DNA from: Bacteroidaceae bacterium
GTDB lineage: Bacteria > Bacteroidota > Bacteroidia > Bacteroidales > Bacteroidaceae
Assembly: GCA_017483605.1 (NCBI GenBank)
Contig: JAFUWG010000035.1
Coordinates: forward strand, 1-64,000
Direction: 5' to 3'
Length of the DNA stretch: 64,000 bases
This document shows, in pieces, positions 5,291 to 14,613 of the stretch. The notes under the pieces are model-generated. The model worked only from the letters and a program-made list of their open reading frames with translations, made no database searches and was not told the DNA's origin. The position numbers and the translations under genes are program-made. The number at the start of each line of letters is the position of its first letter. Positions within the stretch are counted from its first letter, which is position 1.

Positions 5291-6244
5291 ATGAAAATCG
5301 TAATACTTGACGCATATACGGTTGACCAAGGAGAATTGACTTGGGAGGGACTGAAAGAACTGGCGGAGGTGGAGGCGTATGAACGCACTGCCCCCGAGGA
5401 TGTGGTGGCTCGATGCAAGGGTGCCGAGATGGTGCTGACGAACAAGGTGGTGCTGGATGCCTCGGTGCTGAACATGCTGCCACGCCTGCAATACATCGGT
5501 GTGCTCGCCACGGGCTACAACGTGGTGGACCTCGAAGTGGCAAGCCGGCAGAACATCGTGGTGACCAACATCCCCGCCTACTCCACCGAGAGCGTGGCAC
5601 AGATGGTGTTCAGCCATCTGCTCAACATCGTGGGACGCACCGACCACTATGCCCGCGAAAACCGACTGGGCAAATGGACGGCATCGCCCGACTTCTGCTA
5701 TCTCGACCACAACCTTGTCGAACTGAACGGCAAGCGGATGGGTATCGTGGGCCTGGGCAACATCGGCATGGCTGTGGCTCGCATTGCCACGGCATTCGGA
5801 ATGCAGGTGCTGGCTTACACCTCGAAGGACGAGGAAGACCTGCCCTACGGCATCAAGAAGGTGGACATGGACACCCTCTTCGAGCAGTCGGACATCGTGT
5901 CGCTGCACTGTCCGCTCACCGTGGAAACACATTTTCTGGTGGACAAGGAGCGACTGGCAACGATGAAGCCGACCGCCATCCTCATCAACACAGGCAGAGG
6001 GCCGCTCGTGGACGATGCCGCCGTGGCGGAAGCACTGAACAACGGCGACCTTGCCGCCTACGCTGCCGACGTGCTGACCACCGAACCTGCTCCGGCTGAC
6101 AATCCGCTCCTCACCGCCAAAAACAGTTATCTCACCCCTCACATCGCTTGGGCGACACGCGAGGCGAGACAACGTCTCATCAATATCTGCACAGAAAATG
6201 TTCGGGCTTATCTGGACGGAGAGCCCGTGAATCAGGTGAACTAA
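5291..6244 (+). CDS. D-2-hydroxyacid dehydrogenase (glycerate dehydrogenase-like)
   Basis: A 317-residue NAD-dependent dehydrogenase. The Rossmann motif is IVGLGNIGMAVARIATAFG (about residues 150-170), followed by the substrate-binding NTGRGPLVDD and the catalytic region around TPHIAWATREARQR. The length fits the D-isomer-specific 2-hydroxyacid dehydrogenase family. It is closest in feel to glycerate/hydroxypyruvate reductases of Bacteroidales, but the exact 2-oxoacid is not certain. The start at 5291 (MKIVILDAYTVDQG) is chosen over an earlier in-frame ATG because the -7 box lies between them. Confidence 0.88.
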   Translation: MKIVILDAYTVDQGELTWEGLKELAEVEAYERTAPEDVVARCKGAEMVLTNKVVLDASVLNMLPRLQYIGVLATGYNVVDLEVASRQNIVVTNIPAYSTESVAQMVFSHLLNIVGRTDHYARENRLGKWTASPDFCYLDHNLVELNGKRMGIVGLGNIGMAVARIATAFGMQVLAYTSKDEEDLPYGIKKVDMDTLFEQSDIVSLHCPLTVETHFLVDKERLATMKPTAILINTGRGPLVDDAAVAEALNNGDLAAYAADVLTTEPAPADNPLLTAKNSYLTPHIAWATREARQRLINICTENVRAYLDGEPVNQVN

Positions 6245-6265
6245 AATCGCCTTAACAAAGATGGG

Positions 6266-6339
6266 AAAAATGAAAAAGATGGACTGAAGCGATGTTTGCC
6301 AACATACCGCATGGCATCTTTTCCATCTTTTTCATTTTT
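6266..6339. terminator. Bidirectional terminator hairpin
   Basis: An 18-bp perfect inverted repeat (AAAAATGAAAAAGATGGA at 6266-6283, complement at 6322-6339) separates the convergent dehydrogenase and RCC1 genes. A/T runs on both outer edges fit termination from both sides. Confidence 0.7.
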
Positions 6340-6415
6340 GTGAACTTTTTGTTTGGTAAGCCAAAGTATAAACTTTTTTGTTTACTTACTTTTATAATTT
6401 GTCAGTCTTACCTTC

Positions 6416-8449
6416 TCATTTTACCAATATTTTTTTACCATTAATAATATTAAGACCCTTCTTCGGTGCAGCCAAATTCTGACCTGAAAGGTTATATATG
6501 ATTGTCTTGCCATCTTCCCTAATGAATGTGTTTCTTATAGACGAAGATGGTTCTGGCTCTGAAATCTGTATAGGAACACTTTTGTTCATAGTTGTTCCAT
6601 CGCACAACTGACCATAATCATTACTACCACATGCCCACAGTGTGCCATCTGTTTTTAATACCATAGAGTATACAGAACCAGCAAAAACATCTGCTACGTT
6701 ATCCATCACCTTCATTGGTGTGGCCTTGTCTGTTGTTGTTCCATCGCACAACTGACCATAATAATTACTACCACATGCCCACAGTGTGCCATCGGTCTTT
6801 ATTACCATTGTATGAGAATTGCCACAAGAAACAGTTGCTACGCCATCCATCACCTCTATTGGCGTGACCCTTTTTGCTGTTGTTCCATCGCACAACTGAT
6901 TGTGATTATTATATCCACAAGCCCACAGTGAACCATCAGTTTTTAATATCATGGTATAAGAAGCGCCTACTGAAACAGAAGCAACACCTTCCATTATCTT
7001 TACTGGTGTGGCCTTGTTTGCTGTTGTTCCGTCACCTAACTCTCCTACAGAATTCCACCCACAAGCCCACAGCGAGCCATCGATCTTCAATATCATAGTA
7101 CTATGACCTGTTAAACCTGTAGATACCGAGGCTACACCTTCCATTATTTTTACTGGTGTGGTCTTGTTTGTTGTTGTTCCGTCACCTAATTGACCATAAA
7201 AATTATACCCACAGGCCCACAGTGAGCCATCAGTCTTCAATATCATGGAATGAAAAGAACCTGCTGATACAGAAGCAACACCTTCCATTATCTTTACTGG
7301 TGTAGTTTTGCCTGCTGTTGTTCCATCGCACAATTGACCATAATAATTCCCCCCACAGGCCCATAGTGTGCCATCGGCCTTTAATATCATGGTATGATTA
7401 GAGCCTGCTGATACAGAAGCAACACCTTCCATTATCTTTATTGGTGTGGCCTTGTTTGCTGTTGTTCCGTCACCTAATTGACCATAAAAATTAGACCCAC
7501 AGGCATACAGTGAGCCGTTTGATAGTAATATCATCGTATGGGATTGACTTGTTGCGATTTGCTCAACATTCCATTTTTGTAATCCTGATACCGTACCATT
7601 AACCGTAATGCTACAAAAAGCCTCAAATCCACCGTCTTTTGTCTTACATGAAATCAAGGTCTCTCCTTTACCTATTGCTTTTACTATACCAGAGTTGGTA
7701 ATAGAAACAATGTCATTATCATACGACGACCAAATGACACTCTTTTCTGTTGCATCTGCTGGATATACCGTTGCTGTCAATTGTCGTGTATCTCCTATGT
7801 TCATGGTCAGAGAATAGATATCAAGTACAACATCTATAACAGAAATATAGGAAGCCTTGACTGCAACATAACATTGACCTTTTTTGCCATTTGAAGCAGT
7901 CGCAGTAATTATGGCTTCACCTACTGATTTTGCCGTAACCTGCCCATTGCTGTTTACTAAAGCAATGGTGTTGTCAGATGTGCTCCATTCTACCGTTTGG
8001 TCAGCAGATGATGGAGAAACTTGTGCCCTCAAGTTATATGTATCTCCAGGATTTAGTTCAAGGTTTGAAGGATAGACAGAAACACCTTCAGCTCCATCGT
8101 CTTTTATAAAGAAATAAAAATCTTTATAACTTGAACGCAGATAAGTATACCTCCCAGTTGTTGGGTCTAAATCATAATAATAGTATTGACAATGAATTGT
8201 TACAGGTGTCGCATAAGAAGGCTTTGCGAGAGCTTTAACAGTTACTTCTGTAGAATGGTTTGTTACATTCCCTACAAAATCTAAACACTTATAATCACTG
8301 GTTGTCCACACACATTCTTTAAAATTTGAGATGTAGCCAAGTGTACATGAATAAGTTTCACCAATGTTAAGATTAACGGATGCCTTTATCGGCAAAAAGT
8401 TCACGCATAAACAAATGAACAATAATAATAATTTGTGTTTCATATTCAT
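6416..8449 (-). CDS. Secreted RCC1-repeat protein with two Ig-like (BIG2) domains
   Basis: A 677-residue exported protein. A signal peptide (LLLLFICLCVNFLPIKA) is followed by an unassigned stretch, then two bacterial Ig-like group 2 domains at about residues 130-290 (VEWSTSDNTIALVNSNGQVT and a second copy), then seven RCC1 repeats of about 50 residues, each centred on WACGxNxYGQLxDGTT. Seven repeats can close one beta-propeller. The C-terminus ends GLNIINGKKILVK, the same tail type as the proteins at 43932 and 50145, and probably an export or anchoring signal. The repeats are also similar at DNA level (~150-bp units), so copy number could change by recombination. The start may be 8449 or 8443. 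Confidence 0.85.
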   Translation of the reverse strand: MNMKHKLLLLFICLCVNFLPIKASVNLNIGETYSCTLGYISNFKECVWTTSDYKCLDFVGNVTNHSTEVTVKALAKPSYATPVTIHCQYYYYDLDPTTGRYTYLRSSYKDFYFFIKDDGAEGVSVYPSNLELNPGDTYNLRAQVSPSSADQTVEWSTSDNTIALVNSNGQVTAKSVGEAIITATASNGKKGQCYVAVKASYISVIDVVLDIYSLTMNIGDTRQLTATVYPADATEKSVIWSSYDNDIVSITNSGIVKAIGKGETLISCKTKDGGFEAFCSITVNGTVSGLQKWNVEQIATSQSHTMILLSNGSLYACGSNFYGQLGDGTTANKATPIKIMEGVASVSAGSNHTMILKADGTLWACGGNYYGQLCDGTTAGKTTPVKIMEGVASVSAGSFHSMILKTDGSLWACGYNFYGQLGDGTTTNKTTPVKIMEGVASVSTGLTGHSTMILKIDGSLWACGWNSVGELGDGTTANKATPVKIMEGVASVSVGASYTMILKTDGSLWACGYNNHNQLCDGTTAKRVTPIEVMDGVATVSCGNSHTMVIKTDGTLWACGSNYYGQLCDGTTTDKATPMKVMDNVADVFAGSVYSMVLKTDGTLWACGSNDYGQLCDGTTMNKSVPIQISEPEPSSSIRNTFIREDGKTIIYNLSGQNLAAPKKGLNIINGKKILVK

Positions 8450-8516
8450 TTAATATTTAATAATGATTACTTAAGTCAGCACTAAGATTCTTTCTTACAG
8501 TCGGCACTAACTTCGC

Positions 8517-8672
8517 AAAAGAGCAAAAGAAAAGCGCAGACTCTCGCCATACGCCTTTCGGGTCTTCCACAACCCACACTTACTACGGAAAAGTCTGCGC
8601 ACATAAGTGCACATACTCCTTAGTAAGTGTTATTGCTCTTTTTCGTTTTCGGATGTGGAAGTTTGAAAGGCG
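8517..8672 (-). ncRNA. Structured leader or small RNA with interleaved inverted repeats
   Basis: Four complementary pairs lie in 156 bases. Pair A is 8517-8526 with 8633-8642 (10 bp). Pair B is 8534-8542 with 8592-8600 (9 bp, GCGCAGACT). Pair C is 8552-8559 with 8665-8672 plus 8564-8570 with 8655-8661 (15 bp). Pair D is 8576-8585 with 8621-8630 (10 bp, ACACTTACTA). C encloses D and A encloses B, but the two sets cross, so they either exclude each other or form a pseudoknot. Read on the minus strand, helix B is followed by TTTTCTTTT, like a terminator. The RNA would lie in the 5' leader of the RCC1 gene. Biological role is inferred. Confidence 0.6.
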
Positions 8673-8714
8673 ATTTGAGCAAATAAAATGTCTATGTTCC
8701 GAAGAACACGGTTG

Positions 8715-8746
8715 CAAATTAACGACTTTTTTTGTTTTTATCCAAA
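8715..8746 (-). promoter_or_regulatory. Possible promoter for the structured leader
   Basis: On the minus strand, TTTG (8743-8746) and TTAATTTG (8715-8722) are separated by 20 bases. This matches the -33/-7 spacing of Bacteroidetes promoters with one mismatch in the -7 box. Transcription would begin near 8708 and cross the structured element. The remaining bases of this gap (8747-8878) show no gene. Confidence 0.4.
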
Positions 8747-8878
8747 CAAAAGGGAAAGTTTTTTGGAGAAGATGTCAAAAAATAGGGTATCGGGAAGTCG
8801 CAAACCTCCCAAAAAGATTTTTGATTGTTTTTTGACAATAATGGCTACTCCATGCGATAAGGGTACCGCCTCGGAATC

Positions 8879-9760
8879 TCAATACTTGATTTTGAAATAG
8901 TCGAGCAGGGCTTTATAATGGCCTTGTGCGGTGAGACAAGTGTCGGTGAGGAAACCGTTGACATTGCCCCACTCCTGTATGCCACGATAATAATACAAAC
9001 GCAAGTCCTCTGTGACGATAAACGGCACGATACCAGCCTGGAGACATTGCCAAAACATCACGAGTCGCCCCACTCGCCCATTACCATCTTGGAAGGGGTG
9101 GATTCGCTCAAACTGCACATGAAAATGAAGGATATCGGCAAACCCCACTTTCTCCAGAGCATTATACTCCTTTAGCAAGTTCTTGATGCATTTATGTACA
9201 TCCTGAGGCTGCACGGTTTCTTCGCCACCCACCTCATTTGCCAAACGCTTATAATCCCCCACCGCAAACCACCGTTTTTGGCTGTCAGAGGTATTCGTCT
9301 TAAGAATCTGGTGCAGTTGTTTGATATGTGCTTCTGTGAGTCGGTCGGTGGCGTGGTCGATGATGTAATCAATGCAGCGGAAGTGATTGACGGTCTCCAT
9401 GATGTCGTCAATGCGTGTACTCTCGGTGGTGATGCCCAGTGTGTTGGTTTCAAAAATGTGGCGAGTCTGCTCCTTGGTCAATCGGCTGCCCTCAATGTGG
9501 TTGGAGTTGTAGGTCAGGTCAATCTGTGTGCGATGGTAGATGCCACCTCTCAGTTGCATCTCTTTCTCTTCACGCAAACGAGCGAGCAAGGGAGAGAGTT
9601 TCTTCTTCCCCCTTTGTGGCAATGCGGCATCGGCGGGGATGTTCCATGTCTTCCCTGTGAGGAAAGCCCCATCGATTTTCCCTGAGGCACAGTAGTTTCT
9701 GGCTGTTCGTTCGCTGATGCCGTGCTTTTCGGCAAATTGAATGACGGAGATGTATTCCAT
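8879..9760 (-). CDS. Fic/DOC family protein with N-terminal HTH
   Basis: A 293-residue protein. The Fic core motif HPFQDGNGRVGR (about residues 217-228) contains the catalytic His and the nucleotide-binding loop, so it probably transfers AMP or another nucleotide moiety to a target hydroxyl. Upstream, SNHIEG fits the [S/T]xxxE[G/N] inhibitory helix, so the enzyme is likely autoinhibited. The first ~50 residues (VIQFAEKHGISERTARNYCA) look like a helix-turn-helix of the MerR/excisionase type. A perfect inverted repeat flanks its promoter, which suggests autoregulation. The cellular target is unknown. Confidence 0.88.
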   Translation of the reverse strand: MEYISVIQFAEKHGISERTARNYCASGKIDGAFLTGKTWNIPADAALPQRGKKKLSPLLARLREEKEMQLRGGIYHRTQIDLTYNSNHIEGSRLTKEQTRHIFETNTLGITTESTRIDDIMETVNHFRCIDYIIDHATDRLTEAHIKQLHQILKTNTSDSQKRWFAVGDYKRLANEVGGEETVQPQDVHKCIKNLLKEYNALEKVGFADILHFHVQFERIHPFQDGNGRVGRLVMFWQCLQAGIVPFIVTEDLRLYYYRGIQEWGNVNGFLTDTCLTAQGHYKALLDYFKIKY

Positions 9761-9765
9761 ATTAT

Positions 9766-9824
9766 CGGCAAGTTTTCGCTGAAAAAGATGCTACAAAGGT
9801 ACAAAAACTTGCCGACATCGGCAA
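9766..9824 (-). promoter_or_regulatory. Fic promoter with flanking operator repeats
   Basis: The -7 box TACCTTTG (9794-9801, minus strand) is framed by an 11-bp perfect inverted repeat: CGGCAAGTTTT at 9766-9776 and its complement at 9804-9814. A further half-site ATCGGCAA lies at 9817-9824. The placement suits repression by the HTH domain of the Fic protein. This is inference. Confidence 0.55.
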
Positions 9825-9862
9825 ATCTTTCGAGAGAAGTCCTCGCTCAAAGCCGCATTTTG

Positions 9863-10468
9863 TCATTTCAGGTCTGCCTCTGTCACCTGCGACCTCACGC
9901 GGCTCAGCGTCTCCGGTGTCATCTGGAGGAAGGACGCCACGTGGTGCAGGGGGGCGCGACGGATGATTTCGGGGTTCTCACGCATGGTGCGGATGTAGCG
10001 TTCCTTTGCCGTCTCGAAGCGAATCACATCGGCTTTTCGCTGCGAGATGATGAGCGAACGCTGATAGAAAGCGAAAATCAGTTTGCAAAGTTCAAAGGAG
10101 CGGCTGGCGATGGCTTCCAACTCGTCGTGGGGGATGCCATAGACAACGCCCGGTTCCAGCATGGTGGCGACGATGTGGGAGGGTTCGCGGAGGAAGAAAC
10201 TCTCGATGCAAATCACCATGTCCCCCTCGTGGCTGATGTGTTCGGTCACGGTGACGTTGTTCTTGGTGTAATATTGAAGAACCATGCCCCGCTCCACGAA
10301 GTACATGCAGTTGCACACTTCGCCCTCGTTGACCAGATTGTGCCCTCTCAGCAGTTTCTGGGGTTGCAGAATGTTCATAAAGGCATGGAGGGCGTCCACA
10401 CTCAGTGTCACCCCATAACTTCGGCAAATCTCTCTTGCCACGTCGCGTCGTTGTTCGTTTAGATTCAT
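9863..10468 (-). CDS. Crp/Fnr family transcriptional regulator
   Basis: A 201-residue protein with an N-terminal cyclic-nucleotide-binding-type beta barrel (about residues 30-125, KLLRGHNLVNEGEVCNCMYF) and a C-terminal winged helix (VASFLQMTPETLSRVRSQV) with the Crp/Fnr recognition helix. No Fe-S cysteine cluster like that of FNR is evident, and the effector is unknown. Bacteroidetes carry many such regulators. It stands apart from the Fic gene and about 50 bases downstream of yggS in the same direction. Confidence 0.88.
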   Translation of the reverse strand: MNLNEQRRDVAREICRSYGVTLSVDALHAFMNILQPQKLLRGHNLVNEGEVCNCMYFVERGMVLQYYTKNNVTVTEHISHEGDMVICIESFFLREPSHIVATMLEPGVVYGIPHDELEAIASRSFELCKLIFAFYQRSLIISQRKADVIRFETAKERYIRTMRENPEIIRRAPLHHVASFLQMTPETLSRVRSQVTEADLK

Positions 10469-12794: not shown

Positions 12795-12875
12795 CATTTT
12801 TCCGCTAAAATCACATGAATTTTAGCACTTTTTCATATTAGGTGATGGTTAAACGACAAAAAATGACTACTTTTG
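12795..12875 (+). promoter_or_regulatory. Promoter of the 6S RNA gene
   Basis: The -7 box TACTTTTG lies at 12868-12875, about 7-10 bases before the proposed RNA 5' end. The preceding ~70 bases are similar to those of the VapBC-like operon (11850-11926), including TTAGCACTTTTTCATAT. Confidence 0.6.
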
Positions 12876-12881
12876 TAACCG

Positions 12882-13056
12882 CATTCTGCAAAGAGTGCAA
12901 AGACATATTGCTCAATACTCTCTCAATCACCACCGCGAGAAACGAGCAAACTCTTAATATTGGGACTGTACCCTGTTATGGGCACAGATTTCCCATATTT
13001 AAGAGTGGCTTGTGGTGAGCCGAGAGAGGTATGGCGAATGTCTGTGCCTTTTTTTG
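12882..13056 (+). ncRNA. ssrS: 6S RNA (Bacteroidales type)
   Basis: The sequence folds into one long hairpin with an internal bubble, the hallmark of 6S RNA. Closing stem: 12897-12911 with 13034-13047 (AGACAT with ATGTCT, TTGC with GCGA). Middle stem: 12918-12924 with 13022-13028 (CTCTCTC) and 12928-12933 with 13012-13017 (CACCAC). Central bubble: about 12934-12949 opposite 13007-13011. Apical stem: 12950-12957 with 12999-13006, 12961-12965 with 12991-12995, and 12966-12973 with 12980-12987. A T-run follows at 13049-13055. 6S RNA mimics an open promoter and binds RNA polymerase. The ends are approximate. Confidence 0.75.
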
Positions 13057-13089: not shown

Positions 13090-13938
13090 ATGAAAAATTT
13101 GGTCTGTTATGCAACATTGTTGCTCGCTCTGTTTACTTCATGTGCAAAAGAGAAGTATTACTATCAAGTTTATGAGGTAAAATCGCAAGATGTTTCTCAA
13201 AAGGAAAATGCGTTAAGCTACGAAAATGCTGATTGCCGTATTACTTACAACCTCTGGTCTGAAGGTGGAAACCTTAGTTTCCTGATTCATAACAAGACAG
13301 ACAAAAATCTGTATGTTGTCATGCCACAATCATTTTTCATTCTTAACGGAGTCGCCAACGACTACTACTCTGAATCATCCTATAGTCATTCTGTCACTAA
13401 TTCTGCGGCATTGGCAGCCTCAAGGCAATTATCTATTAGCGGATTTCTGACGGATGGCTATTATTGGTATCCATCAAGATTGTCTCGACAGTTGGGAGCG
13501 TCTGTTGGAATGTCAACGACAGAAACTATAGAGACGAAGGAAGCCGCTTTTGTCTGTGTTCCTCCTAAATCAGCCAAGTTCGTAAGAGGCTTTAACTTGT
13601 CTGACCATATTTACAAAGATTGTAATAATAGTAGCGAGAATTATCCAAAGAACACGTCTTCGGTAGTACGCTATACTCAAGGTGACACGCCACTTTCATT
13701 TAGGAATCGCATTGCTTACACTTTTAACGAGCAATCTTCTGAAATAAATTATATAGAACATCTATTCTGGCTTTCATCACTTCAGAATTACTCTGAAAAA
13801 GCAGCCATTTCAATGCAGAAGATCGAAGAATGCGAGACTAAAGCACGAAAAGTACAGCGTAGTTTCAATATGTACTCACCCAGCAAGTTTTACAATCGTT
13901 ATATCATGAATCCTGCACTAAAAAACTCTATATGGTGA
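13090..13938 (+). CDS. Predicted lipoprotein of unknown function
   Basis: A 282-residue protein with a lipoprotein signal (hydrophobic run then LFTSC, acylated Cys18), so probably anchored to a membrane. The mature part has no domain I can name. It contains aromatic stretches (EKYYYQVYEV, GYYWYPSRLSRQLG) and a central region with NLSFLIHNKTDKNLYVVMPQ, reminiscent of small beta-sandwich domains. I chose the ATG at 13090 over 13012 because the earlier one lies inside the 6S RNA. Two terminator hairpins follow. It could be read from the 6S promoter by readthrough or from its own unseen promoter. Confidence 0.75.
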   Translation: MKNLVCYATLLLALFTSCAKEKYYYQVYEVKSQDVSQKENALSYENADCRITYNLWSEGGNLSFLIHNKTDKNLYVVMPQSFFILNGVANDYYSESSYSHSVTNSAALAASRQLSISGFLTDGYYWYPSRLSRQLGASVGMSTTETIETKEAAFVCVPPKSAKFVRGFNLSDHIYKDCNNSSENYPKNTSSVVRYTQGDTPLSFRNRIAYTFNEQSSEINYIEHLFWLSSLQNYSEKAAISMQKIEECETKARKVQRSFNMYSPSKFYNRYIMNPALKNSIW

Positions 13939-14151: not shown

Positions 14152-14613
14152 CTATTTGTTGAAGAAGAAAAAGAAGAAGCAGGCGGCTGCGACCTCGTCG
14201 TTGCTGGAGGAGCCTTTCATGTAGCCGACGGTGGAGTGGCTGCGGTTCTCGAAGGTGCCGTTGCGGATGTAGCCGACGGTGGAGTGGCTGCGGTCTTCGA
14301 ATGTGCCGTTGCGGATGTAACCGATGGTGGAATGGCTGCGGTCTTCCACGGTGCCGCTGCGGACGTAGCCGATGGTGGAGTGGCTGCGGTCTTCCACAGT
14401 GCCGTTGCGGATGTAGCCGATGGTGGAGTGGCTGCGGTCTTCCACCACACCGTCACGCACATAACCGATGGTGGAGTGGCTGCGGTCTTCGATGGTCCAC
14501 TGTCCGCTCTGCATCATTGTTGTCACATTGGTGTTCTCTTCGGTTCTGACTGAAGCGAACAGCACCACTGGCAATACGGCTGCCAACAGTGCAAGGAGCA
14601 TTCTTTTCTTCAT
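14152..14613 (-). CDS. Five-fold beta-flower repeat protein
   Basis: A 153-residue exported protein. A signal peptide of about 20 residues (MKKRMLLALLAAVLPVVLFA) is followed by tandem 16-residue repeats, EDRSHSTIGYIRNGTV and variants, about six complete copies plus partial ends. These form the short beta-strands of the Bacteroidetes beta-flower fold. The tail is hydrophobic (AAACFFFFFFNK), also usual for this family. Function is unknown; a surface or periplasmic role is inferred from the signal peptide. Confidence 0.8.
   Translation of the reverse strand: MKKRMLLALLAAVLPVVLFASVRTEENTNVTTMMQSGQWTIEDRSHSTIGYVRDGVVEDRSHSTIGYIRNGTVEDRSHSTIGYVRSGTVEDRSHSTIGYIRNGTFEDRSHSTVGYIRNGTFENRSHSTVGYMKGSSSNDEVAAACFFFFFFNK
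14217..14490 (-). repeat. 48-bp tandem repeats within the beta-flower gene
   Basis: About six units of 48 bp, nearly identical around GTGGAGTGGCTGCGGTCTTC. They encode the 16-residue protein repeats and could expand or contract by slippage or recombination. Confidence 0.85.

Follow-up and report, generated by a model that had tools for sequence, protein, structure and literature searches.

A family of structured leader RNAs with a predicted conditional terminator upstream of exported-protein genes in Bacteroidales

The window analysed here, a stretch of 64,000 nucleotides of DNA from a Bacteroidaceae bacterium, carries upstream of a gene for an RCC1-repeat protein one member of a large and apparently undescribed family of structured leader RNAs, which is rather likely to act through a conditional intrinsic terminator. 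Comparison of the copies shows, on the strand of the putative transcript, a promoter motif, the covarying helices H1, E, A, B, C, P, D, and G, with D placed at a U-run, and an open reading frame (ORF) behind them. To our knowledge, few Bacteroidales regulatory RNAs are understood, and this family is large, bistable as judged from covariation, and without a name in the sources searched. It precedes many exported proteins of undescribed role, including accessory and prophage-borne ones. Identifying its signal would show under which circumstances gut Bacteroidales use these proteins and might uncover a common signalling input.

The first copy in the window holds the following parts, where R1 and R2 are two covariance models, the second of them built from 104 copies.

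8743–8746 or 8747–8750, minus strand: possible −33 motif TTTG
8715–8721, minus strand: promoter −7 motif TAATTTG (consensus TAnnTTTG), 5 nt ahead of H1
8527–8709, minus strand: whole leader element, copy 1 (covariance-model match of 168.5 bits with R1 and 159.2 bits with R2)
8694–8709, minus strand: H1, 5′ hairpin GTGTTC(TTCG)GAACAT at the predicted transcript start (6/6 pairs with two-sided changes in 104 copies)
8677–8682, minus strand: E 5′ strand, TTGCTC (covariation and swap test)
8665–8672, minus strand: A 5′ strand, pairing with 8552–8559 (8/8 pairs covary, 97.0% of cells paired)
8655–8661, minus strand: B 5′ strand, pairing with 8564–8570 (7/7 pairs covary, 99.7% of cells paired; B, like Q, is biased in the rows from a pattern scan, because the pattern itself selects copies carrying TCACCACC and GGYTTGTGGTGARCC)
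8633–8638, minus strand: E 3′ strand, GAGCAA (covariation)
8621–8630, minus strand: C 5′ strand, pairing with 8576–8585 (6/6 modelled pairs covary)
8609–8617, minus strand: P 5′ strand, apical hairpin and candidate antiterminator (8/8 pairs covary, 84.9% of cells paired)
8592–8600, minus strand: shared strand, with either the P 5′ strand or the D 3′ strand as its partner (both covary)
8584–8588, minus strand: G 5′ strand, CCGTA, overlapping the C 3′ strand by 2 nt in copy 1
8576–8585, minus strand: C 3′ strand (from the sequence)
8560–8575, minus strand: Q, small hairpin GGGT..ACCC with the B 3′ strand (8564–8570) as its loop, read from the sequence (0 two-sided changes in the columns chosen)
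8552–8559, minus strand: A 3′ strand (from the sequence)
8547–8551, minus strand: G 3′ strand, TATGG (covariation)
8534–8542, minus strand: D 3′ strand, AGTCTGCGC, candidate terminator stem (8/8 pairs covary, 94.2% of cells paired)
8527–8533, minus strand: U-run TTTTCTT, directly after D
6416–8449, minus strand: ORF of the RCC1-repeat exported protein behind the leader

The initial annotation of this region had proposed four interleaved inverted-repeat helices, described by length without coordinates. Matched to the sequence by length and span, all of them are present, and the RNA reading corresponds to the minus strand. The perfect 9-bp helix is D (8534–8542/8592–8600), whose 3′ strand is followed on the minus strand by TTTTCTTTT, as had been noted; the 15-bp helix is A plus B (8552–8559/8665–8672 and 8564–8570/8655–8661; 8 + 7 bp), and one of the two 10-bp helices is C (8576–8585/8621–8630). 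The apical hairpin is P (8609–8617/8592–8600), which has one mismatch in this copy, but the AGGAG-ATG that had been pointed out in the same apical loop is not supported as a meaningful start; the alignments place it in variable sequence, in the 5′ arm of the hairpin. Regarding the two crossing sets of helices, A/B and C are indeed nested in each other and D crosses both, but the other 10-bp helix (8517–8526/8633–8642) is private to copy 1; it was rejected, as a TTGCTC lies within 35 nt downstream in 1/152 copies, and the conserved partner of GAGCAA (8633–8638) is the upstream TTGCTC (8677–8682). The extent first given, 8517–8672, encloses the helices listed there, but the element itself spans 8527–8709, including the 5′ hairpin (8694–8709) and helix G, which had not been listed. 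Pairing beyond what is expected by chance was borne out: the minus-strand RNA of 8709–8527 folds at −66.2 kcal/mol, compared to −42.1 (sd 4.3) for 200 dinucleotide shuffles (z −5.65), none of which reached this energy (0/200), and compensatory change in homologues, on which the initial annotation had staked its reading beforehand, is present.

A second copy of the element is found on the other strand of the window, with a fold that departs from shuffles by a z of −7.94.

12868–12875, plus strand: promoter −7 motif, TACTTTTG
12881–13054, plus strand: leader element, copy 2 (74.4 bits with R1, 122.7 bits with R2)
12981–12988/13041–13048, plus strand: helix D
13049–13055, plus strand: unbroken T7 run behind D
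13090–13938, plus strand: lipoprotein-like ORF behind the leader

Covariation was examined in two alignments. In the first one (A2; 15 copies aligned with MAFFT without a structure model), H1, A, B, C, and P hold 92.9% standard pairs, compared to 32.6 to 46.4% in slid controls, a comparison that favours this structure because it was taken from one row of the same alignment; 27/35 pairs change on both sides, compared to 16.9 in shuffles. The second one (A6) comprises 104 copies fitted to R1, which models H1, A, B, C, and P and leaves E, D, and G outside, and draws on the first 100 of a list of 122 non-redundant sources. Here, all 41 tested pairs of H1, E, A, B, C, and P show two-sided changes, with 93.2% of cells paired and 1003 two-sided cells (279 in shuffles), and D plus G show them in 13/13 pairs, with 88.7% of cells paired and 83 two-sided cells (28 in shuffles; 0/500 shuffles as high), although these cell counts overstate the independent changes, since the copies share ancestry. 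A swap test, which needs no alignment, showed that a copy's own strands pair better than those taken from other copies in 92 (D), 84 (G), 96 (D plus G), and 80 (E) of 104 copies. Helix Z, formed by the 5′ linker and the D 3′ strand in energy folds, was discarded, with its own strands better in only 44/104. At the A/B junction, GAA and CCUCG are conserved. Finally, P and D recur with other letters in 27 divergent copies, some of which are weak matches.

P and D represent mutually exclusive helices of the type expected in an expression platform, as they have a strand in common and both covary. Together with the overlap of E and C, which amounts to 5 nt or more in 26 of the 27 divergent copies, this common strand makes the sets A, B, C, P and E, D, G mutually exclusive, in part or as a whole, which supports the original proposal that a helix set with a U-run behind it is displaced by the other set. 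Transcription would start at H1. When A, B, C, and P are held, the shared strand (8592–8600) would be occupied in hairpin P, so that the terminator could not form and the polymerase would read through to the gene. Alternatively, pairing of the shared strand and CCGTA with AGUCUGCGC and UAUGG (D plus G) would give a long GC-rich stem immediately before the U-run, at which transcription would stop. E, on the 5′ side, would compete with A/B for topological reasons, and with C where the two overlap in distant relatives, and is thus probably part of the terminator state. The balance between both states is expected to be shifted by something that the cell senses, such as a small molecule, a protein, or an ion, and the genes under this control would be mostly those of accessory exported proteins.

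Judged from the sequences, the anatomy of the family is that of a transcription attenuator. At least four T are present in the six nucleotides right after D in 100/103 copies, compared to 5/103 at a control position, and D is in these copies a GC-rich stem of the terminator type directly before the U-run, which is often interrupted by a C (TTTTCTT). An unlikely explanation of the same helices is a constitutive structured 5′ end, where D, A, B, and C form a permanent pseudoknot that stabilises or processes the mRNA, or is self-cleaving, and where the U-run does not act as a conditional terminator. D may be permanently pseudoknotted. In the near subtype, most of H1, E, A, B, C, and D might be present together as pseudoknots, and the structure without D is very stable. 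However, the use of one strand by both P and D, each with its own covariation, the use of one strand by E and C in distant relatives (26/27), and the U-run in nearly all copies (100/103) argue against such a fixed fold.

Counting against a conditional terminator, the nested energies favour the antiterminator fold. With pseudoknots outside the model, the A/B/C/P fold is preferred over E plus D plus G in 100/104 copies, by a mean of 14.9 kcal/mol, and the minimum-energy fold holds more than 70% of the A/B/C/P pairs in 86/104 copies and of the E/D/G pairs in 0/104. For copy 1 of the window, the minimum-energy fold contains E with C/P, and the centroid contains A, B, C, and P. These energies, from a model that leaves pseudoknots and co-transcriptional order outside, suggest read-through by default. 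The frequent break in the U-run, the copies lacking an exact promoter motif or carrying it more than 8 nt from the model start, and the divergent ORFs beside some copies, with the counts given below, likewise weigh against the proposal.

In the 100 nt ahead of the element, 85/103 copies carry the promoter motif, compared to 2/93 control stretches, 57 of these 85 motifs lying within 8 nt of the model start, and the exact motif is absent in 18/103 copies. TAnnTTTG is the −7 consensus of Bacteroidetes promoters as quoted in PMC7366714. On the other side, counting among 152 copies that include duplicates (e.g., L032/L135 and L163/L218), 134 of the 142 whose flanking sequence was long enough have a same-strand ORF (≥50 aa) beginning no more than 150 nt downstream, the median distance being 58.5 nt, and a divergent ORF lies within 150 nt of the opposite side of the element in 41/139. 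The element is therefore predicted to occupy the 5′ leader position of the mRNA of the gene, in agreement with the cis-regulatory RNA of the initial annotation and at odds with a free-standing small RNA as the main function, which had been offered there as the other option. A family of free-standing, trans-acting small RNAs with their own promoter and terminator appears improbable: the promoter motif and the U-run would compose a complete short transcription unit, and many paralogues are present per genome, but the location just upstream of a same-strand ORF speaks against it, and a further TAnnTTTG between the element and the ATG is found in only 4/133 copies, which would leave most downstream genes without a recognisable promoter of this type.

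The proteins encoded downstream are diverse, with 136 proteins falling into 87 clusters, 67 of them singletons. A hydrophobic N-terminal stretch, scored with a simple scale as a proxy for the output of a signal-peptide predictor, is present in 68/87 cluster representatives, compared to 97/388 other genes in the same loci. Among the 25 of 50 Pfam families listed for 114 of the 120 non-redundant proteins, most occur once (RCC1, subtilase, PAD, M48, DarT, and others), and the remainder include LRR_5 (8), Big_2 (8), LRR_8 (5), OMP_b-brl (3), EcoRI methylase (2), WG repeat (2), and Por secretion tail (2). Genes for EcoRI-type adenine methyltransferases, unlike the exported majority, stand behind the leader in L073, L088, L136, and L161.

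Many unrelated downstream genes, and a structure that is kept rather than its sequence, are also features of a processive antitermination signal, in which a folded leader loads a protein on the polymerase, as the put, EAR, and LoaP-type leaders do. This reading is given little chance, with a terminator-like stem inside the element itself standing against it. For the conditional terminator, a possible but tentative extension is that the family constitutes a new Bacteroidales riboswitch class, where one common signal (e.g., a nucleotide second messenger or an envelope-related metabolite) acts through one transferable promoter–aptamer–terminator module to switch dozens of unrelated, horizontally acquired exported proteins. 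An aptamer-like fold of the riboswitch type is supported by covariation in both A2 and A6, and, like riboswitches and orphan candidates with a terminator platform, the family combines a 5′ leader position, a conserved fold, and a strand common to terminator-like and antiterminator-like hairpins. Unlike them, its downstream genes, judged by the Pfam families listed, point to no metabolite, and its copies before unrelated exported proteins can number about twelve in one genome. To call it a riboswitch in the strict sense would be bold.

The gene behind copy 1 belongs to an accessory segment. The RCC1 gene has one other match at E ≤ 1e-30 in 45 congeneric genomes, in G013, and is absent from 43/44 others; a copy of the element (G013:C13:108387-108563) lies upstream of this match, which coordinate arithmetic places in the reading frame of the ORF that follows the copy. 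In 10 of 19 relatives' loci, the dehydrogenase gene (ending at 6244 in the window) is directly followed by the Crp gene (9863–10468), which indicates that the segment between them is an accessory insertion; in the other 9 loci, no Crp gene was found within 1.5 kb.

6245–9862: accessory segment with the RCC1 gene, the leader, and a Fic-like gene

The diverse accessory cargo of the family, the rarity of the RCC1 gene, and the absence of the segment from those 10 loci would be expected for a mobile DNA element or a recombination site of gene cassettes, whose structure is read in single-stranded DNA. Nevertheless, this is very improbable given the promoter motif, the U-run, and the ORF spacing, the frequent G–U pairs in D, P, and H1, and the position of the element in the interior of the accessory segment.

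Searching the genome of the window and 60 relatives at the DNA level retrieved many copies of about 70% identity in the same genus. With R1, and taking covariance-model E-values as rough, the genome of the window has 12 matches at E ≤ 1, 11 of them with E ≤ 6.1e-10 (including 12881–13054), and the genus has 101 matches at E ≤ 0.01 in 29/45 genomes, including this one, and none in the other 16. In the order, at least 23/393 genomes hold a match, including this one, and in a sample of the phylum at least 1/296, which is this genome, both being undercounts, since only 6 and 9 candidates, respectively, were scored per genome. R2 detected the family in 11 of the 41 genomes sampled from the order, including this one: 14 copies in the genome of the window, 3 of which are weak (E 1.2e-7 to 3.4e-5), 11 in G052, and one or two in each of five named isolates; only weak matches were obtained in G017 and the second Parabacteroides, and none in G030, G371, and G209.

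The pattern scan of named genomes returned at least 118 stretches, 80 of which were analysed. Titles among the matches listed include Prevotella, Bacteroidaceae, Rikenellaceae, Paludibacteraceae, Muribaculaceae, Parabacteroides faecalis, Heminiphilus faecis, and Dysgonomonas, as well as one Clostridiales (L104, a 4-kb MAG contig). Cultured carriers among these records include Parabacteroides faecalis AGMB00274, Heminiphilus faecis AM35, and Prevotella sp. AGR2160. R1 matched 89 of the 91 loci searched, the exceptions resembling a remnant (L108) and a chance match (L221). Eleven viral contigs match the pattern, 10 of them also the covariance model, and the copies L218–L220 and L222–L228 lie on contigs classed as viral, perhaps prophages; searches of plasmid and phage records with one copy (L139) gave no match.

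The initial annotation recognised no named riboswitch, and no Rfam 15 family matches the element at threshold in the window and 27 loci. At gathering scores, the only Rfam 15 match in the window is a tRNA, and 16 loci yield RNase P and two FopS, none of which overlaps the element; at relaxed E-values, overlapping matches in sets of 6 and 14 loci are at chance level only (Leu_leader with 22.1 bits in L031, RFPL3-AS1_1 with 16.2 in L016, and EGFOA-assoc-1 with 17.4 in L247, all far below threshold). No such motif is named in the literature searched, including passages of PMC8040213, PMC2864571, and PMC7366714; supplementary lists of candidate RNAs may hold an unnamed entry. The Bacteroidetes motifs of Rfam (Bacteroidales-1, Bacteroides-1, Bacteroid-trp, and Flavo-1) are likewise structured RNAs of this phylum, but none overlaps the element at threshold in the sequences tried. 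The paralogous FopS small RNAs (RF04319) are similar in having many paralogues per Bacteroidales genome, according to their Rfam description, but they correspond to a 71-nt model, with separate matches in two loci and no overlap with the element; these FopS genes lie at L107:1344-1412 and L139:5405-5476. Leader-peptide and ribosomal-protein attenuators also hold a conditional terminator in the leader. However, the helix sequences of this family vary freely and no conserved reading frame was seen by eye, unlike the former, and no ribosomal protein appears among the 25 of 50 Pfam families listed, unlike the latter.

Further elements were observed near the copies. An additional ORF of the window (14152–14613, minus strand) encodes tandem EDRSHSTIGYxRxGT-like peptide repeats. 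Between the end of the element and the ATG (e.g., in L082, L119, and L164), GGCAATATTG is found in 18/152 copies and GGCATATAA in 5/152. A possible second regulatory hairpin, F, between the U-run and the ATG appears by eye to be conserved in some copies, and its longest stem, with a mean of 8.1 compared to 6.9 in mononucleotide shuffles (n = 90), is no more than suggestive.
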